DNA of 64,000 nucleotides from Paratinospora sagittata. Lineage: Eukaryota; Streptophyta; Magnoliopsida; Ranunculales; Menispermaceae. Below the pieces are notes generated by a model that was not told where the DNA came from, did no database searches, and worked only from the letters and a program-made list of their open reading frames with translations. A program made the position numbers and the translations under genes. Of this stretch, positions 6,187 through 60,149 are shown in pieces. The stretch is from assembly GCA_035771175.1 (NCBI GenBank), contig CM069605.1, forward strand, positions 16,942,288 to 17,006,287. The letters are read 5' to 3'. Within the stretch, counting starts at the first letter, position 1. Every line of letters begins with the position of its first letter.

Positions 6187-7315
6187 TGTAATACCCTGTA
6201 TTTCACAAAAAAAAAAATCGTTTGGGAAGAAATGCCCGGACGTTCAGGCACCTGCCCATATGTCCGGGTAGGCAGATGTGCCCGAACGTTCGGGCAGCCC
6301 GCCCTAACGTTCCGGCGCTATTTCTCCAATATAAACCAACCCCCTCCTCCTCATTTCCTCACACCAAATAACCTTCTCTAGTGATTTTTCCTCCTCTTTT
6401 CACTCATTCTGAGTTTTTAGTCTTTTGAGACTCTCTGTTCGAGACTCTCAGTACGGTGCGACGAAGTTCTGTCCGGAGGAAAGCGCAAGTTCTGAAAAAG
6501 AAGTTCTTATCTGAAGGTGGGGAACGAAACATAGGTTTGCGTGTTTTATAACTTTTATTAAAGTTTACATTCAGTTATTATTATATCTACTGTTCATTTA
6601 CACTGCATTATGTCATATAATGTTTATATTGTCGCATTTATGCCTGTACACTTGGAATTCACATATTATACTGTTATAATGTCAGATTTGTGGTCAATCT
6701 AGCTCAACTAGACTCGGTCTTGTCCTCAGTAACTTTAAATAGTGAATGGGAGGCAGCGGGCTGCTCTAGGCGATTGGTATTTAAGCAGACCTTGTGTCTC
6801 ACCTCTCAACTGGGGACTGATCTAGTTGGTCTTATTGAAAGCTATCAGCTTATACAAGTAATACTGAATGTCCTAACCTTGCACGTCATGATACCGACCC
6901 TGATAAGGATCACCAGACGTTGTCAAAGTCAGTCTAAATGTCAAGAGAAGACCAGACCAGTAGACTAGACCAGTTCATGCACTTGCATCATACATATCAC
7001 CACCTAGGGACTTATGTGGTTTATGACTTATATAATAGTTAGGAGCATTGCTCGCTATTCATTATATTTCTCTAGAGAGGGACGTACATGAGAACCCGAC
7101 TACGCCCGGGGAGAGACATCAGTACGTGAATCCAGAGCATCGTTCCTGAGGAGGGACGTACAGTGAGAACCTAGCTACGCCCGGGGAAGGACACCTGCAC
7201 GTAAACTCAGGCGATGTACGTTCATCAAACCATTATTACCATTGTTATTATTCAAAATGCGCGCCCCGTCCACGAGTGTACCACCAGTTTAGGCGCGTCC
7301 GGGCGGGGTGTGACA
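6187..7315 (+). repeat. 3' LTR of family A copy 1 (internally shortened)
   Basis: It starts TGTAATACCCTG and ends GGGGTGTGACA, the termini seen in all family A LTRs. At 1129 bp it is 380-520 bp shorter than the other complete family LTRs because a block between the CATCAAACCATTA region and the CG-rich end is missing. Near the start lie four or so dyad units, one of them the perfect palindrome TGCCCGAACGTTCGGGCA (6279-6296), followed by a TATA box. Confidence 0.93.
6330..6335 (+). promoter_or_regulatory. TATA box of family A copy 1 LTR
   Basis: TATAAA in the context CCAATATAAACCAACC lies just after the dyad units. All family A LTRs have a TATA motif followed by a conserved leader at this place. 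Confidence 0.7.
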
Positions 7316-8408
7316 CCTCCGCCCAATCTACCCTAGACTCCTGTAAAAATGGTTAACAACGGGGTGAGTTATTGCCCGGTGGGTAAGATAGTTCATGAAT
7401 ATAACAATTAATAAGGAGACTTCATAATCAAGCATCATATATACACAACGTAGCATCATAAACAGTACAACGTGGCTTAAAAAGAATGTATGCATAACAC
7501 CGTCTCGTAATGGTTCTGTGATCGTTCATCACCCTGGGTTCATGTAGAGATATCCATCCCCACGTAATCCTAGGTTCACATTGTACGTCCATCTCTAGGG
7601 AAAACATCAATAATAGTGAGCACAATCACACAAAAAACTATTCTATAGATCACAAACCACTTATGTCCCTAGGTAGTTCTTATTTCATGTATGATGATTA
7701 TGCATGTGCAGGTTCGGTCTTTATTAATATTAGACAGGATTTGGCAACATCTGGTGATACTTATCAGGGTCGGCATCACCACGTGTGTTGTTAGGATGTT
7801 CAGTATCACTTATACAAGCATATAGCTTTCAAATAGGACCAACCGGACCAGTCTCCAGGTTGAGAGGTGGGAACACTAGGTCCCGTTTAAATACCAAGTC
7901 TTCTAGAGCAGTAAGCTGCCTCCCGTTTACTATTCAAAGTTACTGAAGACAAGACTAAGTCTGGTTGAATCAAATTGACCACTAATCTGGCGTAGTAACA
8001 GTGTAATACATAGACTCCAAATATTAAGGCATAACTATGACATGTATGAACTTTATATGCAATAATGCAGTGTAAATGAATAATAGACATAATGATGAAC
8101 GAATGAAAACTTTATAAAAAGTCATAAGACATGCGAACCTCTATTTTGTTCCCCCACCTTCAGATAATACTACTGTTCAAAACTGACGCTTCCTCTTAAG
8201 CAGAACCGCTTTGTACCGCAAAGAGAGTTTCAAAAAAAGGAGAAAGAAAATCACAACAAGAGTGATGGAAACCAACTAAGAACAGAAAGAGAATAGATGA
8301 CTTGTGGTATGAAAATGACGGCGGGGGGAGGGGTCCTTTTATAGAAAAAAAGACATGCCCGAACGTTCGAGCAATGCCTTTTTTTTTTTATAAACCAGGG
8401 GTATTACA
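7311..8408 (-). repeat. Diverged family A LTR, minus orientation
   Basis: It reads as the complement of a family A LTR. Its 5' terminus (TGTAATACCCCTGG) is at 8408, with one dyad unit near 8360, and its 3' end is fused to the end of the preceding plus-strand LTR at 7311-7316. The two LTRs share the junction bases TGACAC, so they meet in opposite orientation with micro-overlap. No internal region is attached. Confidence 0.75.
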
Positions 8409-8935
8409 TTGTGCATGTGCAGGTTCATTTTTACTTACATTAGACAGGATTTGGCAGCGTCTGGTGATGCTTATCAAGGTCAGCATTACCGCGTGCATTA
8501 TTAGGATGTGCAGTATTACCTATACAAGCATACAACTTTCAATGGGACCAACCAGACCAGTCCCCAGGTCGAGAGGTGGGAACACGAATTCCCGCTTAAA
8601 TACCAAGTCTTCTAGAGTAGCAAGCTGCCTCCCGTTCACTATTCAAAGTTACTAAGGACAAGACTAAGTCTGGTTTAGTCAAATTGACCGCTAATCCGGC
8701 GTAGTAACAATGTAATACGTGGACTCCAATTATTAAGGCATAAACATGACATGCATGAACACTATACATAATAATGTAGCGTAAGTGAATAATAAACATA
8801 ATGATAAATGAATGAAAACTTTATGAAAATTCATAAGACACGCAAACTTATGTTTCGTTCCCACCTTCAAATTGTACTTTTTCTAAAACTGGCGCTTCCT
8901 CCCATAGAGAACAACTTCGTACCGCAAAGAGAGTG
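8409..8935 (-). repeat. Partial LTR duplicating 7697-8235
   Basis: The sequence from GTGCATGTGCAGGTTC onward repeats the middle of the adjacent LTR at about 7697-8235 with moderate divergence and then stops at 8935. It is an LTR fragment, either a tandem duplication or the remnant of a second insertion. Confidence 0.75.
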
Positions 8936-9093: not shown

Positions 9094-10419
9094 TGTCACA
9101 CCCCGCCCAGACGCGCCTAAACCGGCGGTACACTCGCGGACGAGGCGCGCATTTGAAATAATAACAATGGTAACAACAGAGTGCGCAGCGGAAATATATA
9201 ACACAGTACAAATCTGATTTCATTTAATTCAGAATATTTTTGTACATAAAACGGTCAAGGGAACATACTCCCCAAAATCCCCAATGAATCATACAAAGGG
9301 TACAAAATGTGGGCCCCATATCCTGCACCCAGTCCACCCTAATTTCCTATGAAAGATTGGATAATAATGGAGTGAGCTTAATGTGCACAGTGAGTAAATA
9401 GTTCATGAGTATAACAATTAATAAAGCATACTTCAATATCAAATATCTTAAATACACATGTCAGCATCATAATCAATCAATATGTATGTATGCATGACAC
9501 CGTCTCGTATTGGTTTGATGAACGTACATCGCCTGAGTTCACGTACAAATGTCCGTCCGGACGTTCTCCTCTGGCGTAGCCAGGTTCTATTGTACGTCCC
9601 TCCTCAGGAACGATGCTCTGGATTCACGTACTAATGTCCCTCCCCAGGCGTAGCCGGGTTCTCATGTACGTCCTTCTCCAGAGAAATATAATGAATAGCG
9701 AGCAATGCTCCTAACTATTGTATGAGTCATAAACCATATACGTCCCTAGGTGGTGATATGTATGATGCCAATGCATGAACTGGTCTAGTCTACTGGTCTG
9801 GTCTTTTCTTGACATTTAGACTGACTTTGGCAACGTCTGGTGATCCTTATCAGAGTTGGTATCACGACGTGCAAGGTTAGGACATTCAGTATTACTTGTA
9901 TAAGCTGATAGCTTTCAATAAGACCAACTAGATCAATCCCCAGTTGAGAGGTGAGACACCAGGTCTGCTAAAATAACCAATCGCCTAGAGTAGCCCGCTG
10001 CCTCCCGTTCACTATTTAAAGTTATTAAGGACAAGACCGAGTCTAGTTGAGTCAGATTGACCAAAAATTCGGCATTATAACAATATAATATGTGAATTCC
10101 AAGTGTACAGGCATAAGTGCGATATTATAAACATTATATGACATAATGCAGTGTAAATGAACAGTAGATATGATAATAACTGAATGTAAACTTTAATAAA
10201 AGTTATAAAACACGCAAACCTATGTTTCGTTCCCCACCTTCAGATAAGAACTTCTTCTTTTTTAGATCTGGCGCTTTCCTCTGAACAGAACTTAGTCGCA
10301 CCGCACCGAGAGTCTCGAACAGAGAGTCTCAAAAGACTAAAAACTCAAAATGAGTGAAAAGAGGAGGAAAAATCACAATTTGGAGTGGATTTGGTTTGAA
10401 AAATGAACAGGGGGGTTGG

Positions 10420-10428
10420 TTTATATAG
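10420..10428 (-). promoter_or_regulatory. TATA box of copy 2 3' LTR
   Basis: CTATATAAA on the minus strand, directly downstream of the dyad array and followed by the conserved CCAACC leader. Confidence 0.7.
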
Positions 10429-10433
10429 ATGTT

Positions 10434-10562
10434 TTGGCGCCTGGACTTCCGGGCATGTGCCTGGACTTCCGGGCGGGTTGCCTGGACTTCCGGGAGGCTT
10501 GCCTGAATTTCTGGGCATGTGCCTGAACTTTCGGTCAGGCGCCCGGACTTCCGGGCACGTAT
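10434..10562 (-). repeat. 20-bp dyad array (GGACTTCC type), 6 units
   Basis: Six units of about 20 bp in the U3 region. One is the near-perfect dyad GCCCGGACTTCCGGGC (10541-10556). One unit has the intermediate core GAACTTTC (10525-10532), between the GGACTTCC type and the GAACGTTC type of copy 3. The array ends just upstream of the TATA box. Confidence 0.9.
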
Positions 10563-10604
10563 GCCCAAATTTATTTTTTTTGTTGTGAAATACTGGGTAT
10601 TACA

Positions 10605-10617
10605 CTCTACCCCCCTT
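10605..10617 (-). promoter_or_regulatory. Polypurine tract of family A copy 2
   Basis: The complement of CTCTACCCCCCTT next to the 3' LTR, identical in position to that of copies 1 and 3. Confidence 0.9.
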
Positions 10618-10638
10618 AAAATGATTTCGCCCTCGAAA

Positions 10639-11137
10639 TTAATTCAAGTAGTTGTGATGGTTATCGGCCTGAGATTCCTTGCCGGCGTCATCTCTTGCGA
10701 GTTTAGGGTAGTGCTTGAATGGTCCCTGAATAGCACTGTGGCCGGTGGAATCGTCGTCATCATAAAACCATGGAGAGCAAACTGAATCGGACTCGTCTTC
10801 TGAAGATTCCAACCTTTCAATAATAGATGGTGGTGGAGGGTGCTGGTTACATCGTTTGAGATGGGGGTAGGTTGAGCGGTGGGATACTTTTTCGTGCAGT
10901 TGCTCGAATCCGGCCGGCTGGCAATTTTGGTAGAAGGTCTTGCCAAGATGAGGGCACGGGATTGTCACGAAAAAGCCATGCACGCTCTGGCGATAATGAT
11001 CGTTGTCTGTGTGGTGATAGAGTTGGTGATGCAAAGTAGTTGTGACTTGACTCTGATTCTGAAGGAGTCGCCACAGGTTGCCAAGGAGGCCACTGCGTGT
11101 TTGCATTACCATATCCATTGATATTATTTTCAGACAT
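10639..11137 (-). pseudogene. Conserved post-pol region of family A copy 2
   Basis: The frame starts MSENNINGYGN at 11137, as in copy 1, and stays open to 10847. A second overlapping frame (11118-10639) ends DNHHNYLN just before the PPT and contains PPPPSIIERLES and an acidic PWFYDDDDSTGH stretch. Conservation of both ends between copies suggests coding pressure, perhaps one ORF now split by a frameshift. No known domain is recognised; a spliced accessory product or non-coding conserved RNA are alternatives. Confidence 0.45.
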
Positions 11138-11234
11138 CTGTATAGTTATTCAAGTGAAACAATGTATTAAGATATGTGTAAACAAAGTTCCATCATTTTA
11201 TTGATAAGTGAAAATAGTACAATGTATCACATCA

Positions 11235-14200
11235 TCAATTGGTACTAGAAAACAATTCAGGGCATTTCTGTTTAATTGTTGCTTCTAGTTCCCATGTTGC
11301 TTCCTCGATGCCGTGGTGATCCCAGAGCACCTTCACAAGTGGTATGCTACGTCGCCTTAGTTCTTGAGTTTTTCTATCCAAAATCTGTATCGTTTTCTCC
11401 TGATACTTATTTCCTTCCTCAACCCGAACCTTGACTAAAGGGATGATATGCGAAGGATCAGGATGATACTTGCGAAGCATAGATACGTGAAAAACGTCAT
11501 GAACCTTAGGCATGGACGATGGAAGGGACAGACGATAAGCAAGTTTGTCAATACGTTCAATGATTTGAAATGGACCGATATACCGTGGGGAGAGCTTTCC
11601 TTTGATCCCAAAGCGTTTGACACCTCTTGTGGGCTCGACTTTTAGAAAAACAAAGTCCCCCTTATCAAATTCTAGAGGTTGTCTCCGCTTGTCAGCATAA
11701 CTCTTCTGTCGACTTTGTGCAACACGAAGTCGGTCCTTTGCTAGTGTGATCTTCTCAGAAGTCTCTTGAACTAGTTCAGGGCCTAACTGCAGTCGATCTG
11801 CCATATTTAACCAGCATGCCAGAGATCTGCAAGGCCGACCATAGAGAGCCTCGTACGGTGCCATGCCGATACTAGTTTGGTAGCTATTGTTGTATGCAAA
11901 CTCAGCTAAATGTAAGTATTTTGCCCATCCGTCATTAAAGTCCAAGATGCAACACCATAACATGTCTTCTAAGATTTGAATAAGACGTTCTGACTGCCCA
12001 TCAGTCTGAGGGTGAAATGTTGTGCTCATAGTGATCTTAAAACCCATTCTACTCTGGAAGCTTTTCCAAAAGTTTGATGTGAATCGAGGGTCTCGATCAG
12101 AGACGATTGTGAGTGGTATGCCATGAAGGCGTACGATCTCTCTTTCATATAGTTCTGTAAGTTTTGCGGGATTATCCATGAACTTTATTGGCAAGAAGTG
12201 TGCAGACTTTGTAAGTCTGTCAATGATAACCCAGATAACATCTTGCCCTTTATTATTTTGAGGCAAGGTCGTAAACAAAACCCATTGCGATGTTCTCCCA
12301 CTTCCATTCTCCAATAGGTAACGGTTGGAGAAGTCTAGTGGGAAGTCTTCGTTCTGCCTTAACTTTTTGGGAAACGAGACATTGAGCAACGAAGTCTGCA
12401 ATCGCCTTCTTCATTCCAGAAAACCAGAATTGTCGCTTGACATCCTTGTACATCTTGTCACCCCCAGGATGCATAGCGTACCTCGAACAGTGCATCTCAG
12501 TGAGCACATCTTTCCGAACCTCAGGATCGTTCGGTAAACAGAGACGTTTTTTTATTGAAAATGGTCCCGTCTTCAGTGACCGTCCAGTGAGGAAGGTCCT
12601 GTCCGCTGAGTAGAAGTTCTTGTTTCTCCATTAACATAGAGTAATTAGCTTGAGCTGCTGAAATCTTTGGAACGAGCTCAGAGTTGGCTGATAATTGAAA
12701 GAGTCGTGGTCTTGGTCCCTCTTCGTTCAGCTGTAGGTTAAAGTTCTCCATCTCTGTAGCCAACTTCCCCAGTTCGTAGTTAAGAGTGCAAGCAACATAA
12801 GATTTTCTACTCAGGGCATCGGCCACAACATTGGCCTTTCCGGGATGGTACTGGAGTTGAAAGTCATAATCTTTCAAGAATTCCAACCATCGTCTCTGGC
12901 GGAGGTTTAGGTCTCTCTGAGTGTATATGTACTTAAGACTCTTATGATCCGAGAAGACCTCAAACCGTTCACCGTATAGGTAATGACGCCATAACTTCAG
13001 TGCAAACACAACAGTTGTAAGTTCCAAGTCATGTGTTGGGTAATTACCCTCATGCATCTTCAGTTGCCTCGAGGCATATGCAACAACTTGGTCTTCTTGC
13101 ATTAGTACCGCACCTAAGCCTTGGAGAGAGGCGTCGGTGTATAATAAAAATCCAATTGCATTTCTTGGAGTGATAAGTACAGGTGCCGTCGTGAGGCGTT
13201 TCTTCAATTCCTGAAATAATGCTTCACAGGCGTGATTCCAAATGAATCGCACGTCCTTTCGAGTGAGCTTGGTCACAGGTTCAGCAATCTTTGAGAAGTC
13301 CTTGATGAAGCGTCTGTAATAGCCAGCCAACCCAAGAAAACTCCTAATCTTAGTAACAGTGGTAAGCTGCTTCCAGTTTAAGACTGCTTCAACCTTAGAA
13401 GGATCTACCTCAATGCCATTGCCTGAAACCACATGGCCTAGGAATTGAACTCTCTTCGCCCAAAATGCGCACTTACTTAACTTTGCATACAGTTTGTGGC
13501 TTCTCAAGGTCTGGAGGACTATCTTCAGATGTATCTTATGGTCTTCCTCGGTTGAGGAGTATATCAAGATGTCGTCCACAAAAACCACCACAAATTGGTC
13601 TAAGTATAATCTGAAAATGCGATTCATCAAATCCATGAATGCAGCAGGTACATTTGTTAGACCGAACGGCATAACCAAGAATTCGTAATGACCGTACCGA
13701 GTTCTGAACGCCGTCTTGGTGATGTCCGACTCTCGGATCCGGAGTTGGTGATAACCGGACCGTAAATCAATCTTAGAGAAGTATTTGGCATCTCTAAGTT
13801 GGTCGAACAAGTCATCGATCCTGGGCAACGAATATCTATTCTTGATGGCAACGTTATTCAACTTGCGATAATCGATGCAAAGCCGTAACGAACCATCCTT
13901 TTTGCGAACAAACAGAACTGGAGCGCCCCAGGGTGATGAACTCTTTCGGATGAAGCCATTACTCTCTAATTCCTTCAGTTGTTTGTCTAATTCGACTAGC
14001 TCGACATTTAACATTCTGTATGGTGGAATTGAGATAGGCCCTGTCCCAGGTATGAGGTTGATCTCAAAATCGAATTCCCTAACTGGAGGTAGACCAGGGA
14101 GGTCATTTAGAAAGACTGTTTGGAATTCAGATATGACTGGAACATCATGTACTTCGAGAGGGTATAGTGCTGGTGATTCATTTTCATTGCCAAGGGATAG

Positions 14201-14314
14201 AGCTCGAAGTTGTGCCTTGAGAAGTGCAACTGTTGATTTGTGTATCCATTTCCTTGTTCCCTGAATCTTGACAAACTCTCCTGTAGGCAAGGTTAACTGA
14301 ACTTGCTTCTTCAT
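11235..14314 (-). pseudogene. Pol (RT-RNase H-integrase-chromodomain), family A copy 2
   Basis: Reading from 14314: RT with [44 protein letters not shown] and the catalytic FVDDILIYS; RNase H with [14 protein letters not shown] and the C-terminal [15 protein letters not shown]; integrase zinc finger (EMHCSRYAMHPG; the fourth ligand region reads CLVSQ, so one Cys is Ser); DDE core (VIIDRLTKS, VSDRDPRF, HPQTDGQSERLIQILEDML); chromodomain end (VLWDHHGIEEATWE). Two frameshifts break it, near 12545 in a T run and near 12275. The upstream open frame continues into the nested LTR to 14575, but those residues are antisense LTR and not protein. Very close to copy 1 in the shared part. Confidence 0.93.
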
Positions 14315-14369
14315 ACGCAAAAAAAAAAAAAAAATAATAATAATAATAATTTTTTTAGGATAAAGCACA

Positions 14370-14532
14370 TGCCTTGAAGTCCAGGCACATGGCACATGGC
14401 ACATAACACATGCCTGGAAGTCCAGACACTTGGCACATGACACATGGCACATAACACATGGCACATGGCACATGCCTGGAAGTCCAGGCACATGCCCGGA
14501 AGTCCAAGCAGCCCGCCTGGACTTCCAGGCAC
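14370..14532 (+). repeat. Dyad array (GGAAGTCC type) mixed with ACATGGC repeats
   Basis: Units such as GCCTGGAAGTCCAGGC (14474-14489), a perfect dyad around an AG spacer, alternate with short CACATGG repeats. A TATA motif (CTATATAAA, 14541-14549) follows at once. A shorter version recurs at about 14910-15003 in the second U3 copy. Confidence 0.85.
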
Positions 14533-14736
14533 AAAAAACTCTATATAAACCAACCCTCCCCTCTTCATTTTTCACGCCAAATTGTGATTTTTCCTCCTTT
14601 TTTCACTCATATTGAGTTTTTAGTCTTTTGAGACTCTCTGTCCAAGACTCTCAGTGCAGTACGACGAAGTTCTGTCCGGAGGAAAACTCCAGATCTGAAA
14701 AAGAATAAGTTCTTATCTAAAGGTGGGGAACGAGAC

Positions 14737-14792
<56 letters not shown>

Positions 14793-14794
14793 TG
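14737..14794. repeat. TAA trinucleotide microsatellite
   Basis: About 19 TAA units sit between the two U3 copies; a second TAA/TAAAA tract lies at about 14820-14892. The tracts mark the borders of the roughly 480-bp duplication and could have mediated it. Confidence 0.9.
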
Positions 14795-14840
14795 TGTAAT
14801 ACCCTGTATTTCACAAAAAAATAAAAATAAAATAAAATAA

Positions 14841-14887
<47 letters not shown>

Positions 14888-16040
14888 TAATTTTTTTAGG
14901 ATAAAGTACATGCCTAGAAGTCCAGGCACATAACATGGCACATGCTTGGAAGTCCAGGCACATGCCCTGAAGTCCAGGCGGGCTGCCTGGACTTCCAAGC
15001 GCAAAAAACTCTATACAAACCAACCCTCCCTTCTTCATTTTTCACACCAAATTCACTCCAAATTGTGATTTTTCCTCATCTTTTCACTCATATTGAGTTT
15101 TTAGTCTTTTGAGACTCTCTGTCCGAGACTCTTAGTGCAGTACGACGAAGTTCTGTCCGGAGGAAAGCTCCATATCTGAAAAAGAAGTTCTTATCTGAAG
15201 GTGGGGAACGAAACATAGGGTTGCGTGTTTTATAACTTTTATTAAAGTTTACATTCAGTTATTATTATGTCTACTATTCATTTACACTGCACTATGTCAT
15301 ATAATGATTATACTGCCACACTTACGCCTGTACACTTGGAATTCACGTATTATACTGTTATAATGCCGGATTTGTGGTCAATCTGACTCAACTAGACTCG
15401 GTCTTGTCCTCAGTAACTTTAAATAGTGAACGGGAGGTAGCGGGCTGCTCTAGGCGATTGGTTATTTAAGCAGACCTTGTGTCTCACATCTTAACTGGGG
15501 ACTGATCTAGTTGGTCTTATTTAAAGCTATCAGCTTATACATGTAATACTGAATATCCTAACCTTGCACGTCGTGATACTGACCCTGATAAGGATCACCA
15601 GACGTTGCCAAAGTTAGTCTAAATGTCAGGAAAAGACCAAACCAGTAGACTAGACCAGTTCATGCATTGGCATGATACATATCACCACCTAGGGATGTAT
15701 ATGGTTTATGACTCAAAGAATAGTTAGGAGCATTGCTCGCTATTCATTACATTTCTCTGGAGAGGGACGTACATGAGAACCCGGCTACACCCAGGGAGGG
15801 ACATCAGTACGTGAATCCAGAGCATCGTTCCTGAGGAGGGACGTATAGTGAGAACCTGGCTACGCCTGGGGAAGGACACCTATACGTGAACTCAAGCGAT
15901 GTACGTTCATCAAACCATTACGAGACGGTGTCATGAATACATACATATTGATTGATTTTGATGCTCACATGTGTATTTAAGATATTTGATATTGAAGTAT
16001 GCTTTATTAATTGTTATACTCACGAACTATTTACCCACTG

Positions 16041-17558
16041 AGAACACTGCAAATTCACGTCAGTACCAGATCCGAACGGTGATGTGACATGGAATGTGAT
16101 GTTTGTGGGTTCAGGATGCAGGCCTAAATGTATTACCAATGCCGACGATATAAAGGAATGCGTAGCACCTGAATCAAACAAAACATGCACCATTGTATTG
16201 AACAAAGGAAAGGTACCTTCGACTACGTTGTTGTCTGGAAGGGGTTGTTGAGCGATTGCAAATGCTCTGCCCTGATTTCGTTGACCCTGGTTCTACTGGT
16301 TTTTTTTAGGTTAGGCATTAGCAACAGGTGGTGCTTGTTGGACTGGAACAACGGGAATAGGTTGCTGAAAGTGCGGACAGAGATATTTTACATGGCCCTT
16401 TTGGCCGCAGTTGAAACACGTCGACTGGTACTGCGGGTGGTTCTAGTTGCCATGCTAATTGTTCTGCTGGCCATGCTGATTGTGGTGTCGACCACCACCT
16501 CTGCCATTTTTGTTTCTACTGCCACCCCTTCCATATCGACCTCCACGGCCATGACTTCGGAAACCCTAATGGTTAGGGTTAGAAGGTTCAGTCGCAGGTG
16601 TTGTGGCCTCATTCTTCGAAATAAGGGCTGGGATGGTTGGGTTTTGATTGTAGTAGGGCTTTTTCTTGTTGCCCTGTTGCGAGCCCTGTTGGGAAAACGT
16701 TGCAGGTCGTTTTCCCTTATTCATTCTCTACTCCTGTAAGATCTTCTCTTGTTCAAAGCTCATGGCCTTGTCAACAACCTCCATGTAAATCTTGAGATCC
16801 AAGATCGACAAGGCTTGTCGAATATCATGGCGAAGGCCATTATAAAATTTCTCAGTCTTATCTTGCTCCGTTGAGATAGTGGAGAGAGAGTAGACTGATA
16901 ATTCTTTGAACTTTCCAGCATATTCTCTGACTGTCATGGTGCCCTGGTATAACTTAGCGAATTCCTGACGCTTCTGCCTCTTCACAGCGGTGGGAAAATA
17001 CTCATCAATAAACATTGACTCGAACTATTGCCAAGTCATATCTGCTATGTTGACCCTTGGGTCCTCTTTCACTGTTATCCACCATATGTTTGCTCCACTA
17101 ACAAGTTGGTAGGTCGCTAGTGGAATTTTGCGAGTCTCATCGACTCTCATTGCATCAAGAGCCTTCTTTGACTCATCTAGCCACTTTTGCACCTCATCAG
17201 CCTCAATGGTGCCAGCGAAAGTAAGAGGTTGTAGCCTCTTGTACTTAGTAATCTGATCGGTTTGAGATTCCGATCCAAATCGTACAAGTGCCTGAACAGT
17301 GGCAACTTGACTTGCCGCGGTCTCACGAACGGCAGTTTGAACAGTGACCTTCATTGCCTCAATAAATCTGGCGAAGAAGGTTTCCATGCTTGAAGGCATA
17401 ACAAAGGGTGCGGGTGGGGGTGGTATTTCCTGCCCCGATGTAGTGGCAGTGTAGGGTGTGGCCTGTGTTGTTGTCGGAGGCGGCGGTTCCTGAATCTCAG
17501 GAGGTGCCTCCACTGCTGGACGAACAGTATGTGGCCTTCTTCTCTTCCTGGTTTGCAT
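16041..17558 (-). pseudogene. Gag and protease, family A copy 2
   Basis: The start ATG at 17558 opens a basic then Pro-rich N-terminus (residues about 1-50). The retrotransposon gag domain follows (RLQPLTFAGTIEADEVQKWL, ATYQLVSGANIWW, FESMFIDEYFP, KRQEFAKLYQGTMTVREYAGKFKELS, GLRHDIRQAL), then an Arg/Gly-rich stretch, a zinc knuckle CFNCGQKGHVKYLC (CX2CX4HX4C complete) and the aspartic protease motif VLFDSGATHSFIS at about 16175. A TAG interrupts at 17022 and several further stops lie in the RGG region. The protease is cut at 16041 by the nested LTR. Copy 3 shares the N-terminus. Confidence 0.9.
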
Positions 17559-18340
17559 TTTCTCACTGGCAAGGAGAAAATAAAATCAAGATTTAGGAAT
17601 TGTAGCCAAATATAATGTTATAGTATGCTCAGCAACAATTTTGAGAATACTGTAATATTAAAATCACCTATTTTTCTAAGTATAATGTAAGGTTTTTGTT
17701 GAGGAATCAAAAAATCTTATATATCTCGTATGTTTGGCCATGGTGCAAAAAAAACAAGGTTAGAATGTTTATATAATAAGTACAAAACTATGCAAGTATT
17801 TCAAATGATTTGGTTATGGTCTTTGTGAACATACATATATAATTCATTGAAAATCCATACGAGTCATAAGAATTCTAAGATTTTCCTCGGTAAATATCCT
17901 GATCTAATGTTCTATCGTAATCTTATGTATTCAAACTCTTACTATTAGTCTTTTTGATCATTATCCAGATTCGTGTGTCCCATACCACATGAATTTGGTA
18001 ATAAGGGTGTTAACCAAGTTAAGTTGTATGAACATAGTCTCTAAAAATATTGGCTGAATAGAAGTTCACCAATAGTATCTTCCAAGTTTACTCGTCTCAT
18101 ACCGTGTAAACTTAGTGATAATGTTAGTAATGCAACTTTCTCCAAATGTTTCTTTTCACACAAGGTCATGGGTTTCCTTACTTCCACATTTTATTTAGTA
18201 TCTTCCAATTTTGTTGTGTCCCATACCACTCCAAAGTTAGTGATACAAAAGAAAAGAATGGTTGTAAGTCGGCCCACCAAAGATAGTCTTAAACAAAACA
18301 TTTCATTCATATATAAAAGAAAAATTTACAATGCCAGTAA
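17559..18340 (-). other. Spacer between ORF1 and gag, family A copy 2
   Basis: Non-coding on both strands. It is closely matched by 30459-31242 of copy 3, including short pyrimidine-rich CCCATACC motifs repeated several times (for example near 17980, 18100 and 18210). It could hold a leader, splice site or internal ribosome entry for gag; nothing specific can be shown. Confidence 0.5.
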
Positions 18341-19628: not shown

Positions 19629-19957
19629 TCTTTGCTGAAAGGAAAATATATTCCTAACATTTTTAAGATTTATGCCTTGTCAGTTGGATAATATTTTATA
19701 TTCTTTATGTTTATTCCATCATTTAATCCAAATTTTTCTATCGGCAATATGATATAATATATATCGTATTCATATACGAATGTATAGATATATATATTTA
19801 ATCATAACTATATATAATTTTCTTAGATATATATTTAATACAAATCTTAACTATATATAATTCATATATATATAGTTCTAAAGATATATATATATATATA
19901 TCTAATGAAAATATTCTTCTCCTAATTTGGTGGACTTGGGCGGGCCGTGGACCGTAC
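19629..19957 (-). other. 5' leader of family A copy 2
   Basis: Very AT-rich with ATATATA runs; no coding potential. It connects the primer binding site to ORF1. Confidence 0.6.
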
Positions 19958-19958
19958 T

Positions 19959-19969
19959 CTCTGATACCA
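19959..19969 (-). promoter_or_regulatory. Primer binding site (tRNA-iMet), copy 2
   Basis: The minus strand reads TGGTATCAGAG, complementary to the 3' end of plant initiator tRNA-Met, five bases inside the 5' LTR. It matches 11 of the usual 12 bases. Confidence 0.93.
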
Positions 19970-19974
19970 TTAAA

Positions 19975-41790: not shown

Positions 41791-42321
41791 CTAATTTTTG
41801 AGTTTTTCGAATTTTTTTAAGTTCAAAACATGTTTTATTGATTAAACAATTTCGAAAACACTTGGACACACATAATTTGATCAAATTGAAATTCATGCAA
41901 GTGTTTGAAATACTTTCGATGAAAGTCAAAAGTTTGACCAATATGAAAATCGATTTGACTAAACAAAACAAAACAATGATGATTTGGAAAACATTTCAAC
42001 TAAATAGAATTATGAGTGCATGCATGGAATGATTTGAAAATAAATGAGCAATATAGAGGCAAGAAAGATTACAACCTAGTTCTAAGAACATTTGTAAGCT
42101 CTCATCCTTTTTTCTTCAAGTCAACACATCCAATCTTTTGCCTTTGTTTTTGTTTGATCCACTTGAGTTGACTTGAGATCACTTGAATCTTGTATTGGCC
42201 TTTTATCTTTGATCTTTGGTGCTGAAACATACTCAATTAAACCATTAGCACCGTGGTTATATTGTTTGTTAGCATCAAAACACTGAGGAGAATTCTAAGT
42301 GGAAAACCACTTAGGTCAACA

Positions 42322-51499: not shown

Positions 51500-53065
51500 T
51501 GTAACACTCGTACCTTAGGATGACGTCATTTTGATCTATAGAGTACACATATAAGTATTCGTATCTATATGCGTATGCGTATTTTGATGCTCGATGCGCA
51601 TAGGTTCGACTGTCTTAGCATGCTTTTATGTCATTTAGAGTGTGCATGAAGTTTCGAAACCATCGGAGACCATTTCGGCATTGAAATATGAAAAATTGGG
51701 TTTTGGAACAAAGGAACTCGCTCCATGGGAGAAAAAGAAGAAAAAATTTTCCAAGTCTTGATGGAGCGCACTCCATGGGAGAAGGTGCGTGCTCTTTGAG
51801 CCAGGCCGAGGTGAAATATTTATTAGTCTTTGATGGTGCACCCTCCATGTTTGGAGGAGCGCGCTCCTTGAAGAAAAATCCAAAAAATCACATTCACCAG
51901 TTTGGAGGAGCGTGCTCCATCCTTGAAGGAACGCGTTCTATGGAACCAAAAACCAAAATTTTCACTTTTAAACTAGTGGAGCACGCTCCCAGTTAGGAAA
52001 ATTCAAAAAAAATTTGTTTTTTGGCAAATTTTTCATGTGGGCCCAAAAATGCAACTAGACTTCTATAAAATCCATTGGGAAGTGTTTTGCTCATTTTATC
52101 ACTTTGAAAAGGAGCAAAGGAGCTTCAAGAAGAGGAAAAGAAGGGGATAAGAGAAAAATGGAGGAAAAGTTCGGGTTTTGGTGCATTCTTACTCAAGAAT
52201 CCACAAGGTAATCATATTTTTCCTCATTTTCTTCCTTTTTTTTCACTTTCATATGTATTTGCAAGCTTTCTTTTGACCTAGGGTTTACAATGAATCCCGA
52301 ATTTGGTGGGTTCTTGACCTAGGGTTTGCATGTTTGGGCTATTTTATGCTTGTTTATGATGCTAATGGCCTTCCCTAACCTAGAACAACCCCTATTGATG
52401 TGTTTCCACCCATGAATCCCGAAATTTGTGGAGGGTGTTGAAAGAACACATATTGGAGTTAGGCTTTGCATGTCATATATGTATGATTAGAGGCCACTGG
52501 GAACCTATTGATGGTAAAACCTCCAATTTCAAGCAAGAAATTGGAGTAGTTATGTGTATTGACCTAAATTTTGGACCTTTTATGGTTATGGGTTTCGCGC
52601 ACACATGGCCCTTGTATTGATTCTTACCAGGAGGTGTTTAGGATTGCATATGCATGTTTATAAAATTGTATGCATTGTCTTGTTTATGACATGATACATT
52701 ATATTGGCATGCATGGAATCTAGCTTATACCCATGTTATTTAAATGGTTTTAATAATCTTGCAGTTTTTTACTTAAATGCATATATATGTTGCCACTTAT
52801 GTAGAACATTCACTGAGCTTGTTAGAGATCACTTCTCATCCTTATCTTTTCAGGATTAGATAGGAAGGGGAAAGAGAAAGCTTCGTTGCGAAGGGATTCC
52901 CGTACTTTTGTTGACGTAGGTGTTTAGTACTTTTTCACATTTATTTTGATAAATTGTACTATGTAACACCTAATACTTATACTTAACATTTAGATGGGTT
53001 TGTAGTTATGGTTAAGTATAATTTGTACTTTGAACATTATGGACTTGGAGAAAAAAAACTTGGCC
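51500..53065 (+). repeat. 5' LTR of family B (deleted)
   Basis: Starts TGTAACACTCGTACC. Relative to the 3' LTR it lacks about 0.9 kb after the CCTAAATTTTGGAC motif (52562) and its last roughly 200 bp, joining gag directly near 53065. Confidence 0.88.
51715..51990 (+). repeat. Paired dyad array (GGAGCGCGCTCC type) upstream of TATA
   Basis: Sites such as GGTGCACCCTCC (51835) and GGAGCGCGCTCC (51856-51867) are 21 bp apart. Other pairs (GGAGCGCACTCC/GGTGCGTGCTCT; GGAGCGTGCTCC/GGAACGCGTTCT) show the same 21-bp step. The TATA box TATAAAA follows at 52063-52070. Confidence 0.87.
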
Positions 53066-54080
53066 ATAGGGGATAGGGTTGGACCAGCTAAGGTTCATGC
53101 CGATGTTCAAGATGAGGTACAGGCTGAGGCTGTGAGGATTCTAGAGTAGAGGTCTAACTCAGATCGTTATGAGAGGGTTATGAAGGCTTTACGGATCAGA
53201 GGCCTGACAGAGTATACTGGAGGCCTTTGTATTAAGACAACTGAGAGATAGCTCAGGAGGATGAAGACTATCTTCAGCGACATGCAGACTTTTGAGGCTA
53301 AAAAAGTGAGGTTGGCCAGGTTCAAGCTCATCGATAGGGCTGATGATTGGTGGCTGAGACTAGACTGCTTGGTCGATGAGATCCAGACGTGGACCAGGTT
53401 TAAAGAGCTTTTCTACAAGTAGTTCTACTCGAGGTCAGAGTGCGATCAGAGGAGGATTGAATTCATGCACCTGACCCAGGGCAGTCGGTCAGTGAGGGAG
53501 TACGAGCAGGAGTTTAACCGCTTGAGACTCTTTTCTCCTAAGATGGTATCGACTGATTACCTTCGCATGCAAAGGATACGATATGGTTTTCGGGATCGTA
53601 TCCGTCAGGGTTTGGCACTTTTCGGCGTTCAGACTTACGCACAGGCGATGTTACAAGCTGCTAACTTTGAGACTGCAGAGGCTTACTCTCAGATGAGGAC
53701 ATCAGTCACAATACTGACACAGCCGGCAGGGTCAGCGGGTCAATCTTATGGTAAGAAGAGCCAGAAACTAAGGGACAAGAGGCAGAGGTTTGGTGGCAGT
53801 GAGTATGAGGCATCAGTAGCCTCCGCTCTAGTGACAGTTGCACCACCAGTTTCGGGCCATAATGTAAAGATGTCAGGTAGGCCTCAGCAACAACAGAGTT
53901 CGGTTAGGCACAATGGACAACAGACAGCCAGAGCAGAGTCGCAGGCTATATCTTCAGCGCCTAGGGCATCATGACCGATAGTCTGTTTCGAGTGCGATGT
54001 TCCAGGGCACAAGAGGAGTGAGTGTCCAGGTAGAGCATCTGCTACACAGTTCAGTCATATGCCAGTTGCTACCAGAGAGT
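53066..54080 (+). pseudogene. Family B gag with zinc knuckle
   Basis: Gag domain motifs: AKVRLARFKLIDRADDWWL-like segment near 53305, FKELFY, MHLTQGSRSVREYEQEFNRL (53465 on), YGFRDRIRQGLALFGVQTYAQAM. The zinc knuckle CFECDVPGHKRSEC lies near 53980-54021. Stops at 53146, 53248, 53418 and 53972. The true N-terminus is deleted. Confidence 0.9.
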
Positions 54081-54099
54081 AGGCCCGAGCTGTAACACA

Positions 54100-57000
54100 G
54101 GCAGATCTTGAGGCTAGCAAACAATTAATTGAAGGTACAATCAGCATTTGCGATTTTGTGATGTATGTCTTGATTGATGCTTGTTCTACTCTATTTTTTT
54201 ATTTCTTGTAGTGTGGTAGATAGATTGAGATTGTCTACTGTTAGGACTAGTACGCCGTTGATTTTTAGTACGGCGGCTAGTGAGAGGATTTACCCTAACA
54301 TGGTATGTGTGGGATGCATTGTGAGATTCGAGGACCATGAAATGTCTGTCGACCTTAGAGTCTTCGAGTTCCTCGAGTTCGATGCCATTTTGGGTATGGA
54401 TTGGCTAGTAGTGTATCACGCTCACATTGATTGCTTCAGCAAAAAGGTTGTCTTTCAGATACCTGGATAGCCAATTTTTTTTATTGAGGCAGGATTGCAT
54501 TAAGACCATCTACCCAAGGTAGTTTGAGGCTAGTGGATGGGATAGGGAGTTCAGTTAGCAGACATTCCTATAGTTTGTGAGTACCCATAGGTTTTCCCTG
54601 ATGAGTTACATGACTTACCGCCTAAGCGAGAGGTAGACTTTATCATTGAGTTGATGCCCAGGACAAAACCCATTTCCATTCCACCGTATCGTATGGCACC
54701 AAAAAAGTTGAATGAACTCAGAGCCCAGCTTGATGAGCTGATGGGCAAAGGATTCATTTCCCCTAGTATGGGCAACACCTGTGTTGTTCGTCAAGAAAAA
54801 GGACGAGAGTCTTCTATTGTGCATAGACTACCGTCAGTTGAATAAGGTAACTATGAAGAACAAGTATCCACTTCACTTGTTTGATCAACTGATTGAGGCC
54901 AAGTTCTTTTCGAAGATTGACTTGAGGTCTGGATACCATCAGTTGAGGCTTAGAGACAAGGATGTGCCGAAGACTGCTTTTCAGACGAGGTATGGACATT
55001 ATGAGTTTATGGTGATGCCCTTCGGATTGACTAATGCACTAGTTATGTTCATGGATCTGATGCAGAGAATATTCAGACTGTATCTTGACCAGTTCATTGT
55101 AGTTTTCATTAATGATATCCTAGTCTACTCTAAGACTAGAGAGTATCATGAGCGTTACCTCAGAGTTACGTTGTAGACATTGTTGGAGCATAGGCTGTAT
55201 GTCAAGCTAAGCAAGTGTGACTTGTGGATGACTAAGGTGAAATTCTTGGGTCATGTGGTTAGTGCAGAGGGTATTTTTGTTGATTCTGCTAAGGTTGAGG
55301 GGATCACTGGTTGGCCAAGACTTACCACAGTGACAAATATTCATAGCTTTCTGGGTTTGGCTGGCTATTACAGGATGTTCATGAAGGACTGTTCCGCCAT
55401 AGCCGCACCATTGACTAAGCTGACTTAGAAGAATGTGACCTTCACGTGGTCGGATGCCTGTGAGAAAGCTTCCAGTGAGTTGAAACAGAGGTTGACTACA
55501 GCTCCAGTGTTGATTATTCCAGAGCCTGGGAAAGAGTTGGTGATTTATACGAATGCATCACTCTTAGGTTTGGGATGTGTGCTGATGCAGGAGGGTCGAG
55601 TGGTTGCATATGCATCTAGACAGCTTAAGGTGCATGAGCACAACTACCTTGTCCATGATTTGGAGCTGGCAGCCATAATGTTTGCACTGAAGCTATAAAG
55701 GCATTACCTTTATGGTGAGAGGTTCACTTTGTTTGTGATCACAAGAGTTTGAAGTACCTCATTGATCAGAAGGAGTTAAATATGCGGTAGAGGAGATGGC
55801 TCAAGTTACTTAAGGATTATGATTTCCTTTTGGAGTATCATCCTGGCAAAGCCAATGTTGTGGCTGACGCTTTGTGCCGTAGGCGAGCAGAGACTCAGGT
55901 GGTTATTTTTCAGATGGCTCAGCAGTGGCAGTTACTTGAGAGAGTGACAATGATTAGTATACTCTCGGATGTACCACGTAGTGAGATATGTGCTTAGATG
56001 CACGGGCAGCTCGCAGATGCCCATATTCAGAGGGTTAGAGATCTACAGGAACATTGTCCGAATTATGACATGTTCTATAGATTTGTATACAGTATTGGCC
56101 GGGTTGATTGGCAGAGAGGTTCAGATGATGTCTTGCGATTAAGAATGAGACTATGGATCCTATATGATGCTGAGTTGTGTGTTGAGATACTTCAAGAGGC
56201 TCACAGGTCTCGGTATACTGTTCATCCAGGGGCTACTAAGATGTATCATGACATGAAGAGATCTGTGTGGTGGCATGGGATGAAGAAGAGTATAGCTGAG
56301 TATGTGCAGAGATGTGAGGTGTGCCAGCAGGTTAAGGCTGAACATCGAAAGCCTGGAGGTTAGATGCAACCATTACCCATACCTAAGTGGAAATGGGAAC
56401 ACATCACGATGGATTTCATCATGGGATTGCTGAGGTCTCAGGGCAGATTTGATGCCATTTGGGTTGTGGTCGATAGATTAACCAAGAGTGCACACTTCCT
56501 TCCTATGAGCGCCAGAGACTCTGTGGATAGACTGAGCATATTATATGTGAAAGAGTTTGTGAGACTTCATGTAGTGCACTTGTCTATCGTGTCGGATTTT
56601 GGCAGGTTTTGCAAACTTGATTTGGGACCCGTCTCCAGTTCAGTACAACGTTCACCCTCAGACTGATGGTCAGTCTGAGAGAGTAATTCAGATGTTGGAG
56701 GATATGCTCAGGTCTTGCATTTTAGAGTTTGGTGGTAGTTAGGGTGAGCATTTTCCCTTCTGTGAGTTTGCTTACAACAATAGTTATCAGGAGAGCATCG
56801 GTATGGCATCGTATGAGGCTTTGTATGGAAGACCCTGTAGATCTCTAGCTTGTTGGTACGAGGTGGGCAATACGCAGTATGGGGCCTTGACACAATTGTT
56901 GAGCAGACAGAAAAAGTCAAGCTGATTTGGCGGAGGCTAAAGTCAGCTCAGGACAAGCAGAAGAGTTATTACGATAACTGGCATAGGCTGTTGGAGTTTG

Positions 57001-57450
57001 CAGTGGGAGATCTAGTTTTGCTTAAGGTCTCGCCACTCAAGGGTCAGATGAGGTTCGATGTCAGAGGGAAACTTGCCCCTAAGTTCATTGGACCATTGCA
57101 AATTGTTGAGAGGATTGGACCAGTAGCGTACAGGTTGGCTCTACCTTCCCAACTCAAGAGTGTTCATGATGTATTCCACGTATCGATGCTGAGGAAGTAT
57201 ATTGAGGATCCATCGAAGAAGTCTTATCCCGATCCAGCTCATGGGCTTGATGTGAGTCATCTGCAAGTTGGGGATGATATGACTTATACAGAGTTGCCAA
57301 TCTAAATTGTGGCTAGTTCGGTTCTGAAATTGACGAATAAGGAGATCCCGCTAGTGCGAGTCAAATGGAAATTCAATAATAATGAAGAGCAAACGTGGGA
57401 GTGTGAGGACCAGATGAGGGAGCAGCTCCCCAATCTTTTTATCGACTGAG
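54100..57450 (+). pseudogene. Family B protease-RT-RNase H-integrase-chromodomain
   Basis: Protease remnant (VLIDACSTLFFYF, DAILGMDWLVVYHAHIDC); RT with [47 protein letters not shown] and box FINDILVYS (usual FVDD; the second Asp pair is broken); RNase H ([16 protein letters not shown], Asp to Asn); integrase zinc finger (EAHRSRYTVHPGATKMY ... CEVCQQVKAEH), DDE core (VVVDRLTKSAHFLP; second Asp in SDFGRF; PQTDGQSERVIQMLEDML) and a chromodomain-like tail near 57345-57420. Several stops and frameshifts. Confidence 0.92.
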
Positions 57451-57506
57451 GTTAGTTCTCTTACTTTTATTTTTAAGGACAAAAGTACACTTAAGTTGGG
57501 TAGAAT

Positions 57507-60149
57507 TGTACGCCCGTACCTGAGGATGACATCATTTTGACCCATAGAGTACCCATATATGTATTCGTATACGTATGCGTATGTGTATTTTGATGCTCGA
57601 CGTGCATAGCTTCGAGTGTCTTAGCATGCTTTTATGTCATTTAGAGTGCGCGTGAAGTTTCAGAACCATCGGAGACCATTTCGGCATTGAAACATGGAAA
57701 TTTGGGTTTTGGAAACAAGGAACTCGCTCCATGGGTAGAAGAGCTCGCTCTATGGGAGAAAAAGACGAAAAAGTATTCCAAGTCTTGATTGAGCGCGCTC
57801 CTTGAGCCAAGCCGAGGTGAAAATTTTATCAGTCTCTGATGGAGCGTGCTCCTTGAAAAGAAATTAAAAAATTCACACTCACCAGTTTGGAGGAGAGCTT
57901 TCCATCCTTGAAGGAATACGCTCCATGGAACCAAAAACTGACACTTTCCCTTTTCAAACTGGAGGAGCGCACTCCATCATTCTAGGAGCACGCTCCATGC
58001 TGGGAAAATCTGAAAAAAATCTATTTTTGGCAAATTTTTCATGTGGGCCAAAAATGCAACTAAACTTCTATAAAAGCCCTTGGGACGTGTTTTGCTCATT
58101 TTATCACTTTGAAAAAGAGCAAAGGAGCTTGGAGAAGAGAAAAGTGGAGGAAAAGTTGGGGTTTTTGAGCATTCTTGCTCAAGAATTCCAAAGGTAATCA
58201 TATTCTTCCTCATTTTCTTCCTTCTTTCACTTTCATATGTGTTTGCAAGCTTTCTTTTGACCTAGGGTTTACTATGAATTCTGGATTTGGTGGGTTCTTG
58301 ACCTAGGGTTTGCATGTTTAGGCTATTTTATGCTTGTTTATGATGCTAATGGCCTTCCCTAACCTAGAAAAACCCCTATTGATGTGTTTCCACCTGTGAA
58401 TCCCGAAATTTGTGCAGGGTGTTGAAAGAACACATCTTGGAGTTAGGCTTTGCATGTCATATATATATGATTAGAGGCCATTGGGAACCTATTGAAGGTA
58501 GAACCTCCAATTTCTAGCAAGAAATTGGAGTGGTTATGTGTATTGACCTAAACCTAGGATTTTGGACTTAGGGTTTGCCATTGGATTTGCGTGTGATGTA
58601 TTTTGAATAGATGGGCAAATGTGGGTGAGTAGTGGTCCAATTTACTGATCTTGATGGTTGAAAACCCTAGGTAAAGTGCAATTTTTGCCTAGGCCTTGTA
58701 AATTGGAAAATTGCAATGAATTTGGGGATTTGCCCAAATTTGGGGATTTTGACCTAGTTGATGTCAATTGATTAAATTGACATAAAATTAGTCTAATTAA
58801 CCCTATTTATGATTGAATGTCATGTATTGTAGTGGTTGGATCAACGTATTGCATTCAACTGGGTTAAATGTGGGTTAATTGGGTATTAAATGGTTGAATT
58901 GGGCAATATGGAACTGGCTCATGTGTAAGACCATTTTAGAATCTTAATTGACATTTGATTTGGGTTTAAACACGGTTGGTTGGCATACTTTGGCCTGATT
59001 TTCAGTTTTGCATAAACCATGTTGTTTTCAGGATTTGTGGTTGATCTAAGTAACCCAAATAGGCCAATTGGGGATTCAGTTGCATTGGGGGTGATTGTGG
59101 CTTTCTAGTGCTTCTCTTGTGGTTGGAAATTGGATTGGCTAGGTCTAGCCAATCAAGTTGTGAGTCTTTCTTTACTTGTGATTTCTTTATGTGTTATTGT
59201 AGTATAAAATGTTTTAAATGCTTATCTAATGTAGTATGCATGATTTATTGAATTCATGAACTGTATTTGAGCATAGTCAGCTGGGAAAACAGTTGAGTTG
59301 TGTTGCATTCCCTAAGCTTGGGATTCTTATGGAATCCCATTGAGCTTATCAAGAATCCTCAATTGTAGACCTTGTAGAGGATTTTATGACTTGTATAGAT
59401 AGGATCGCCTAGACATGGTACTTGTCTTGAAGGGCTGATCCTATTAGCTATACGACCCCAGGAATCCAAATAGATACGTATAAGAAGTCGATCGGGCATG
59501 GGTTTTGCGCACACATGGCCCTTGTATTAATTCTTACCAGGAGGTGTTTAGGATTGCATATGCATGTTTATAAAATTGTATGCATTGTCTTGTTTATGAC
59601 ATGATACATAATATTGGCATGTATGTAATCTTGCTTATACCCATGTTATTGAAATGGTTTTAATAATCTTGCTTTTTTTTACTTAAATGCATATATATGT
59701 TGCCACTTGTGTAGAACATTCACTGAGCTTGTTGTAGCTCACTCCTCATCCTTATCTTTTCAGGATTGGATAGAAAGGGGAAAGGGAAAGGTTAGCTGCG
59801 AAGCAATTCTCGTACTTTTGTTGACGTAGGTGTTTAGTACTTTTTCGCATTTCTTTTAATAAATTTTACTATGTAACACCTAATGCTTATACTTAACATT
59901 TAGATGGGTTTATACTTATGGTTAAGTATAATTTTGTACTTTGAACACTATGACCTTGCAGAAAAAAAATTTGGTTGTCATTTTGGTTATGTTTTATAAC
60001 GATGATCTTATTTATATCCATGTGTTTATTGTTGCATATTTGGGCTTATGTTGTGTGTTAGAAGGCTTATCGGGACGTCGTGCATGTCGAGAGAGGATAT
60101 TCACGGGGTTCCGTGTCAGTTACGACATCACAGATTGTGGGTCGTGACA
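57507..60149 (+). repeat. 3' LTR of family B
   Basis: 2643 bp, TGTACGCCCGTACC to GGGTCGTGACA. Contains the dyad array at about 57720-58000 and TATA (TATAAAA, 58069-58075), plus CATTCACTGAGC near 59718. It is the fuller of the two LTRs and shows the size of the 5' LTR deletions. Confidence 0.93.

Follow-up and report, generated by a model that had tools for sequence, protein, structure and literature searches.

Why should retrotransposons whose promoter regions do not resemble one another carry arrays of short palindromic sites in a common spacing upstream of the TATA box? The question is raised by a 64,000-nucleotide stretch of the Paratinospora sagittata genome (contig CM069605.1, positions 16,942,288 to 17,006,287; hereafter the window), in which two Ty3/gypsy families, A and B, and a copia-type long terminal repeat (LTR), C, carry such dyads in U3. 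The preliminary description of this DNA had placed dyad arrays upstream of TATA in a 20–21-bp register, which was borne out: 89 of 106 steps in A measure 19–21 bp, pairs in B are 21 bp apart, and five of the ten intervals in C are exactly 20 bp. Its view of three unrelated families had to be given up, since A and B share pol stretches that are 66–72% identical and are therefore relatives, though their U3s do not align. The agreement in layout went further than had been claimed: B and C agree in two parameters, 20/21 bp and about 50/51 bp, and the layout recurs in the genome. The features of B and C are listed below; the boundaries and target-site duplications (TSDs) of A1, A2, B, C and E were read from the sequence.

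51500..60149, plus strand: family B gypsy element, TSD TCAAG, with reverse transcriptase (RT)-like open reading frames (ORFs) before integrase-like ORFs
51500-53063 (5′, without its end) and about 57507-60149 (3′), plus strand: B LTRs
51712..51990, plus strand: array of the B 5′ LTR (B5), eight dyads like GGAGCGCGCTCC spaced 50, 21, 51, 21, 51, 21 and 50 bp; TATAAAA at 52064
57718..57997, plus strand: array of the B 3′ LTR (B3), eight dyads spaced 21, 50, 51, 51, 21, 51 and 21 bp; TATAAAA at 58069
37343..42321, minus strand: LTR C of copia type (Sirevirus-like), beginning TGTTGACC, with the poly-C signal AATTCACCCCCC close to its end
41412..41777, minus strand: array of LTR C, with 11 dyads like GGAAACGCGTTTCT at intervals of 20, 55, 20, 44, 20, 52, 51, 20, 50 and 20 bp; on this strand TATAAATA lies 23 bp further downstream

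The order of the B ORFs was read by eye, the Pfam scan having covered only the gag ORF of this element. LTR C, which is interrupted by a solo LTR, E, showed no TSD. Its assignment as copia-type draws on the TGTTGACC start and on a poly-C signal resembling the one in the copia LTR at 50106, and is held with moderate confidence only, because no internal region was recognised; the poly-C integrase signal, as in Sireviruses, is a GGGGTGAA match at 37361 that reads AATTCACCCCCCTCTTGGGTG on the minus strand.

In both B LTRs the pairs are separated by 50–51 bp (a ninth, weak match at 57642 in the 3′ LTR, 9/14, was set aside), and the nearest dyad lies 73 bp (5′ LTR) or 71 bp (3′ LTR) from TATA. The window holds a single exact AAACGCGTTT, the remaining ten C sites being variants; the core of the C sites is CGCG or a variant of it, and their arms are AT-rich. 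Dyad and spacer add up to about 20 bp in three different ways (16+4, 14+7 and 14+6). The earlier statement that the sites are mostly CG-centred was not confirmed for the GGACTTCC units of A, whose centre is AG/CT.

U3 homology between the families was sought by local alignment against shuffles, with the A2 array standing in for family A, and none was detected. The B–C scores lie within those of shuffles, and BLAST with the C dyads masked gave no B–C match; among the other comparisons, only B5–A is notable (same strand, p 0.03), with B3–A at p 0.10 and C–A on the opposite strand at p 0.08. Homology of the three arrays was accordingly rejected, in agreement with the preliminary description, and the captured satellite that it had raised as a counter-explanation finds no support, since no U3 homology was found.

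In family A the dyads form tandem arrays, distributed as follows.

6187..6335, plus strand: start and U3 of an A 3′ LTR, four degenerate units (6234-6316); TATAAACC 13 bp downstream
8340..8408, minus strand: start of a diverged A-type LTR, with a lone dyad GCTCGAACGTTCGGGC between LTR start and TATA (CTATAAAAGG)
9094..21542, minus strand: element A1, TSD AGGAG, interrupted by other insertions
10439..10560, minus strand: U3 array of the A1 3′ LTR, six units GCC-N-GGA-AG-TCC-N-GGC in steps of 20/21 bp
11235-12410, minus strand: A1 integrase ORF
12521-14602, minus strand: A1 RT/RNaseH ORF
14366..14545, plus strand: A-type LTR fragment, five units like GCCTGGAAGTCCAGGC (14371-14530); TATATAAACC 11 bp downstream
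14795..15015, plus strand: A-type LTR fragment, four units (14912-15000); TATACAAACC 11 bp downstream
21298..21497, minus strand: U3 array of the A1 5′ LTR, ten units in steps of 20/21 bp
26362..35126, minus strand: element A2, TSD CTCAA
27637..27962, minus strand: U3 array of the A2 3′ LTR, 16 units like GCCAGAACGTTCAGGC in steps of 20 (13) and 25 (2) bp
28938..30213, plus strand: A LTR start (TGTAATACCC), reversed inside A2, with 59 units (array about 28980-30213)
34872..35077, minus strand: U3 array of the A2 5′ LTR, ten units in steps of 20 (7) and 25 (2) bp

Together these are 114 units, 55 of them distinct, in eight arrays of 4, 6, 10, 5, 4, 16, 10 and 59, with the consensus GCC-N-GRA-NN-TYC-N-GGC; the steps outside 19–21 bp are 25 bp (13) and 26, 32, 41 and 62 bp (one each). 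Over all units, complementarity of the dyad arms is 0.71–0.99 at pairs 1–3 and 5–7, 0.68 at pair 8 and 0.11 at pair 4. Re-pairing arms among distinct units lowers complementarity (307/440 observed, 290.9 expected, p 0.001), a result weakened by the shared descent of the units, which confounds it, and subfamilies differ at pair 6, some having A-T and others G-C, which we count in favour of the enhancer reading given below. Whether the dyad core is more conserved than the spacer in the 85 GAACGTTC units was unclear (columns 8–12 0.92–1.00, outer columns 1–3 0.93–0.99). A heat-shock-element reading of GAACGTTC was dropped: its 5-bp register suits steps of 20 and 25 bp, but the GGA/TCC subfamily argues against it.

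The dyad nearest TATA in A lies 11 bp away in six LTRs and 13 bp away in three, that is, in all nine measured, one of which (in L012) is outside the window. This 11- or 13-bp gap is seen in LTRs with one unit as in those with sixteen. The LTR start at 8408 has its single dyad in the same place, and the remainder of this LTR is 72–74% identical to three A LTRs; judged by its sequence, it may represent a founder-like state. In LTR C the nearest dyad lies 23 bp from TATA.

Are such arrays more than chance? In the window, four or more CG-containing near-palindromes occur in nine bins of 500 bp, and every one of these overlaps an A, B or C array. The predicted excess of dyads over shuffles was seen for part of the arrays: in a dinucleotide-shuffle test B5, B3, C and the three GAACGTTC arrays exceed shuffles, and near-perfect dyads are not significantly enriched in the four GGACTTCC-type arrays. 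When GC-rich dyads are counted, six of 11 A/B/C stretches exceed the shuffle maximum; those that do not are A′, 6187, 14366, B3 (13, maximum 14) and C (5, mean 2.4, maximum 6), the last because its arms are AT-rich. Solo LTR E served as a negative control:

37773..40488, plus strand: solo LTR E, TGTAACACCCCG, TSD TGACC

Its tested U3 stretch (37773-38150) contains no GC-rich dyads (0, shuffle mean 0.3), and the copia-2 LTR (5 vs 3.6) and the LTR at 35127 (6 vs 4.5) show no GC-rich dyad excess over shuffles; in a looser test the copia-2 stretch, which contains an (AT)11 run, does exceed them (21 vs 5.0).

As an unbiased comparison, 20 arbitrary 10-kb stretches of the same genome (200 kb) were scanned. 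The dyad-cluster scan finds seven clusters in the 64-kb window and nine in the sample, five of these from one tandem locus, and none in one block-shuffled copy of the sample; clusters of at least three dyads number 14 in the sample, eight from the tandem locus L017, and 0 in three shuffles. Among the seven distinct sample clusters, two are B/C-like (L012 with 20, 71, 51, 71; L013 with 20, 73, 33, 64) and one, in an A-type LTR, has the A layout (the second in L012, with 21, 21, 20). The other four lack the layout: L017 is irregular with one 20, L023 irregular with one 21, and L010 and the second cluster in L013 have no 20. When L012 and L013 were rescanned with weaker sites, most gaps became 20–22 and 51–54 bp, with 33, 37 and 64 remaining; GGAGCACGTTCC (L013) and CCAGCGCGCTGG (L012) keep 20-bp pairs and mostly 51–54-bp gaps. 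Both match C-type loci weakly (77–88 bp at 75–80%); the sole TATA seen in L012 lies about 230 bp downstream, and in L013 TATAAATACC stands beside the array (by eye). Strict scans of the sample were sparse, one spacing histogram giving three distances (41, 53, 61), a second 13 pairs, ten of them from L017 and none at 20–21 bp, and the strict cluster scan a single cluster spaced 61, 61, 89 (L020). L017:600-9200 is itself a long tandem repeat with dyads like ATAGCGCGCTAT, which have the AGCGCGCT core in common with B and L012.

The whole host assembly (1.29 Gb, 4049 contigs) was searched for motif pairs, with the same search for the reversed motif as control. All counts are lower bounds, and the expectations assume uniform spacing and independence, both of which related loci violate. 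AAACGCGTTT-N10-AAACGCGTTT has at least 37 forward matches (control 0). With N{0,30}, corresponding to pairs 10–40 bp apart, there are at least 66 (control 2); among the 50 matches listed, nine lie at 19, 24 at 20 and seven at 21 bp, and the remaining ten at 22, 31, 33, 39 and 40 bp. With N{31,60}, or 41–70 bp apart, there are at least 144 (control 0), and among the 50 matches listed 22 fall at 49–55 bp (11.7 expected), seven at 63–64 and eight at 69–70 bp (3.3 expected each), hence 37 in these three classes against 18.3 expected; at 42–44 bp the 50 hold no excess (5 vs 5.0). For GGAGCGCGCTCC pairs with N{0,30} at least six forward matches were found, two each at 21, 22 and 31 bp (control 0). 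Two B-type loci found by their pair also show the 50–51-bp gap, L042 with 22, 50, 21 and L043 with 51, 22, 51, 21, 21 (distant weak matches and, in L043, one at 1437 excluded); they match each other at 66–72%, and B or E weakly.

Twenty-one C-type loci were compared, namely L001–L004 and 17 places chosen by eye, one per spacer type. Leaving out the exact pairs by which the loci were found, their 178 adjacent-dyad distances include 59 at 19–21, 21 at 27–32, 16 at 43–45 and 44 at 49–55 bp. Eighteen of them form one related group with window C; different arm sequences also occur in copia-type LTRs of similar layout. One locus, L040:735-1047, carries C-type dyads as a 16-copy, 20-bp tandem array like those of A. 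Counting window C, 16 of the 22 loci have a called TATA preceded by four or more dyads, and six have none. The nearest dyad, often a variant, is 22–24 bp from it in eight of the 16 and 43–45 bp, one 20-bp step more, in three; the others lie at 87 and 97 bp (one each) and at 0–2 bp (three, possibly miscalls).

How, then, do the arrays change? Sister LTRs of one insertion differ in unit number, with 6 versus 10 in A1 and 16 versus 10 in A2, and the B sisters differ by four 21-bp indels, each of which makes two dyads of one. Divergence between the B sisters is 41/253 in the array, 23/200 in U3 before it, 6/69 from array to TATA, and 32/481 and 35/476 in R/U5; with gaps excluded, it is 7/212 in the A2 array versus 35/1258, and 12/122 in the A1 array versus 59/1296. 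The 3′ LTR of B additionally holds about 945 bp (58552-59498) that are absent from its 5′ LTR. The long spacers of B measure 36 or 37 bp and are faintly similar to one another, so that the 71-bp unit looks like an old duplication; those of C measure 30–41 bp, and two of ten comparisons reach p <0.05.

On balance, we lean towards the reading that the arrays are promoter-proximal U3 enhancers whose dyads serve as sites for dimeric host factors and were multiplied by 20–21-bp duplications. Each dyad would be a putative binding site for a dimeric host DNA-binding factor, and in A and many C-type LTRs the site next to TATA would keep a fixed distance from it. Sites would arise by duplication, and disappear by deletion, of a single dyad with its spacer (20–21 bp), and the preferred arrangement would be pairs 20–21 bp apart, separated in types B and C by about 44–55 bp. 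What the sequence shows are the dyads, their spacing and position, the 21-bp copy changes between sister LTRs, the differing arms under a similar layout in copia-type LTRs, the recurrence in the genome and the lack of detectable homology between families; protein binding, transcriptional activation and selection as the cause of the spacing are our inference. Given their CGCG core, dyads of types B and C would be candidate sites for a CGCG-box factor such as CAMTA. A more far-reaching version, which we regard as possible and rather doubtful, is that copia and gypsy elements converged independently on one promoter code, CGCG-core dyad pairs about two helical turns apart with about 50 bp between pairs upstream of TATA, in which arm sequences change from family to family and the layout persists, its spacing selected by a single host factor or factor class that reads dimers of dimers.

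Several observations weigh against the enhancer reading. The B sites end 71–73 bp from TATA, compared to 11–23 bp elsewhere, and the B array and the U3 before it diverge more than R/U5, thus giving no sign of constraint after insertion. Steps of 25 bp in A and of 44/54 bp in C break helical phase. The proposal that two helical turns place the sites on one face of the DNA could not be established as strict phasing: in B, p is 0.0002–0.0004 with independent intervals but 0.10–0.12 if tandem duplication set the two interval classes, and in C it is 0.31. Contig pairs such as C1/C14 and C4/C17 carry identical array pairs in the genome-wide search, which suggests that the assembly holds two haplotypes and that counts may be roughly doubled; together with the kinship of the 18 C-type loci and the 16-copy array in L040, this means that the counts are not independent. 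Four of the seven sample clusters lack the layout, some LTRs (E, copia-2 and the one at 35127) have no GC-rich dyad excess, and the A-T/G-C change at pair 6 of A may be a single event.

One alternative is neutral tandem repetition, in which a palindromic word near a promoter was multiplied by slippage or unequal exchange; the first duplication would have fixed the spacing, and the common 20–21 bp would be a coincidence. The freely varying copy number (1 to 59 units), the four indels between the B sisters, the apparent duplication of the 71-bp unit and the B phasing under that null all conform to it. Nevertheless, we consider it unlikely, as B and C agree in two parameters although their U3s do not align, most long spacers of C are unrelated in sequence and yet similar in length, A, and in many cases C, retains its distance to TATA, and the exact pairs at 19–21 bp enclose about 30 different spacers, several alike (counted by eye).

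An improbable alternative is a role in RNA, with hairpins in the 3′ end of the transcript feeding siRNA production or being tolerated despite it. The suggestion of a hairpin source of small RNAs survives for A, where all eight arrays contain 110-nt windows below −40 kcal/mol, a cut-off that the available part of PMC10760457 uses for maize, and the palindromes of maize Sireviruses, which likewise make up a palindrome-rich cis region, are described there and in part of PMC5311732 as small-RNA hotspots. Here, however, the strongest folding arrays are in gypsy elements, B and C do not fit (B5 alone reaches the cut-off, in 0.04 of its windows, and B3 and C do not), and hairpins require neither a fixed distance to TATA nor 20-bp pairing.

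We likewise give little chance to an exchange of U3 between B and C, by template switching or capture of a single satellite, with later loss of sequence similarity. The dyads GGAGCACGTTCC of the copia-type L013 do resemble B dyads such as GGAGCACGCTCC, and both types occupy one nested repeat region; the B–C alignments within shuffles, with B5–A alone standing out, and the absence of a match once dyads are masked speak against such an exchange. Least probable is targeting by an element-encoded DNA-binding protein, on the model of VANC, which binds tandem motifs in VANDAL elements and relieves their silencing. VANC targets are in the available part of PMC5735166 likewise short, often tandem motifs that vary between relatives with gain and loss of repeats, and A2 retains a 388-aa ORF matching PF20167 (putative plant transposon protein) despite having no RT-region match. 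Against this, C has no internal region, the PF20167 ORF of A would be a candidate binder at most, and VANC motifs lie in one orientation, palindromes being unmentioned in the main text; VANDAL elements also differ in being DNA transposons.

How far does the enhancer reading extend known systems? Tnt1 BII boxes and similar U3 enhancers are short tandem activator repeats, as are the arrays here. We know of no description of BII boxes as palindromic pairs at 20 bp. The closest precedent are the RM boxes of Sireviruses, which, according to the part of Bousios et al. 2010 (PMC2829016) available to us, are palindromic, present in many copies per LTR and clustered just upstream of a conserved TATA. 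Their core is CGG-CCG in all but Tnd-1 within an element-specific sequence, the set is Ty1/copia, its other copia elements lack RMs, and that part of the source holds no spacing rule for them. LTR C resembles these boxes in its palindromic motif, copy number of at least eight (11 dyads, mostly imperfect), layout and 23 bp to TATA; it differs in its CGCG core, in its GC-poor surroundings and in forming no CpG island as an RM cluster does (GC 0.341 and CpG observed/expected 0.75 over 41412-41778, from composition only, without an island-prediction program). The assertion that a grammar shared by gypsy and copia elements is undescribed therefore needs to be divided: the copia half is not new, copia palindromes before TATA having been described in 2010 (PMC2829016), while searches of open-access literature turned up Sirevirus work but neither gypsy dyad arrays nor a common 20/50 layout; the part of PMC11656987 at hand makes no mention of palindromes or dyads. 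Palindromic U3 boxes are thereby extended to Ty3/gypsy, and sister LTRs of a single insertion are seen to differ in copy number by steps of exact dyad size. If unrelated elements have a spacing rule rather than a sequence in common, this would be a sign of a host DNA-binding architecture by which transposon promoters are recruited, and would offer a direct way to find and test that architecture.

Some further features concern the elements themselves. In A, Pfam places RVT_1 and RNase H within one ORF, followed by SH3_Tf2-1, which is the Ty3/gypsy order; the rve match in the integrase ORF is below its cut-off, and neither of the two A integrase ORFs gave a Pfam chromodomain match at 1e-3; by eye, their C-termini resemble the chromodomain that follows the integrase in chromovirus/Tekay-like elements. 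An extra ORF lies between 5′ LTR and gag on the minus strand in both copies, at 31723-32889 in A2 (the PF20167 ORF) and 18511-19308 in A1. No counterpart of the A1 RT region was found in A2; the 59-unit, 20-bp array occupies this pol position and ends inside its last unit, fused to the gag region. With the U3 arrays it could pair as a long hairpin, and beside it, at 28490-28930, a foldback of some 430 bp whose inverted arms are long was seen by eye. One translated piece of the array matched no protein at E 0.001 or better among 39 candidates, and two scans of viral contigs found no relative.

Another dyad array has a different register:

36827..37318, no strand assigned: array D, made up of dyads like GGTTCGGTAC-N4-GTACCGAACC, for the most part in a register of 34 bp; additional copies at 42329-42732 and 23822-23879

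Its core, CGG..CCG, is like that of the Sirevirus RM boxes, and its register means that the 20-bp layout is not universal. A piece of a plant mobile domain gene (PF10536; 43959-44717, minus strand) adjoins a copia internal region at a point without a recognised LTR, and an EXO70 gene, with its nearest relative in Stephania yunnanensis (71%), lies at 435-2432.

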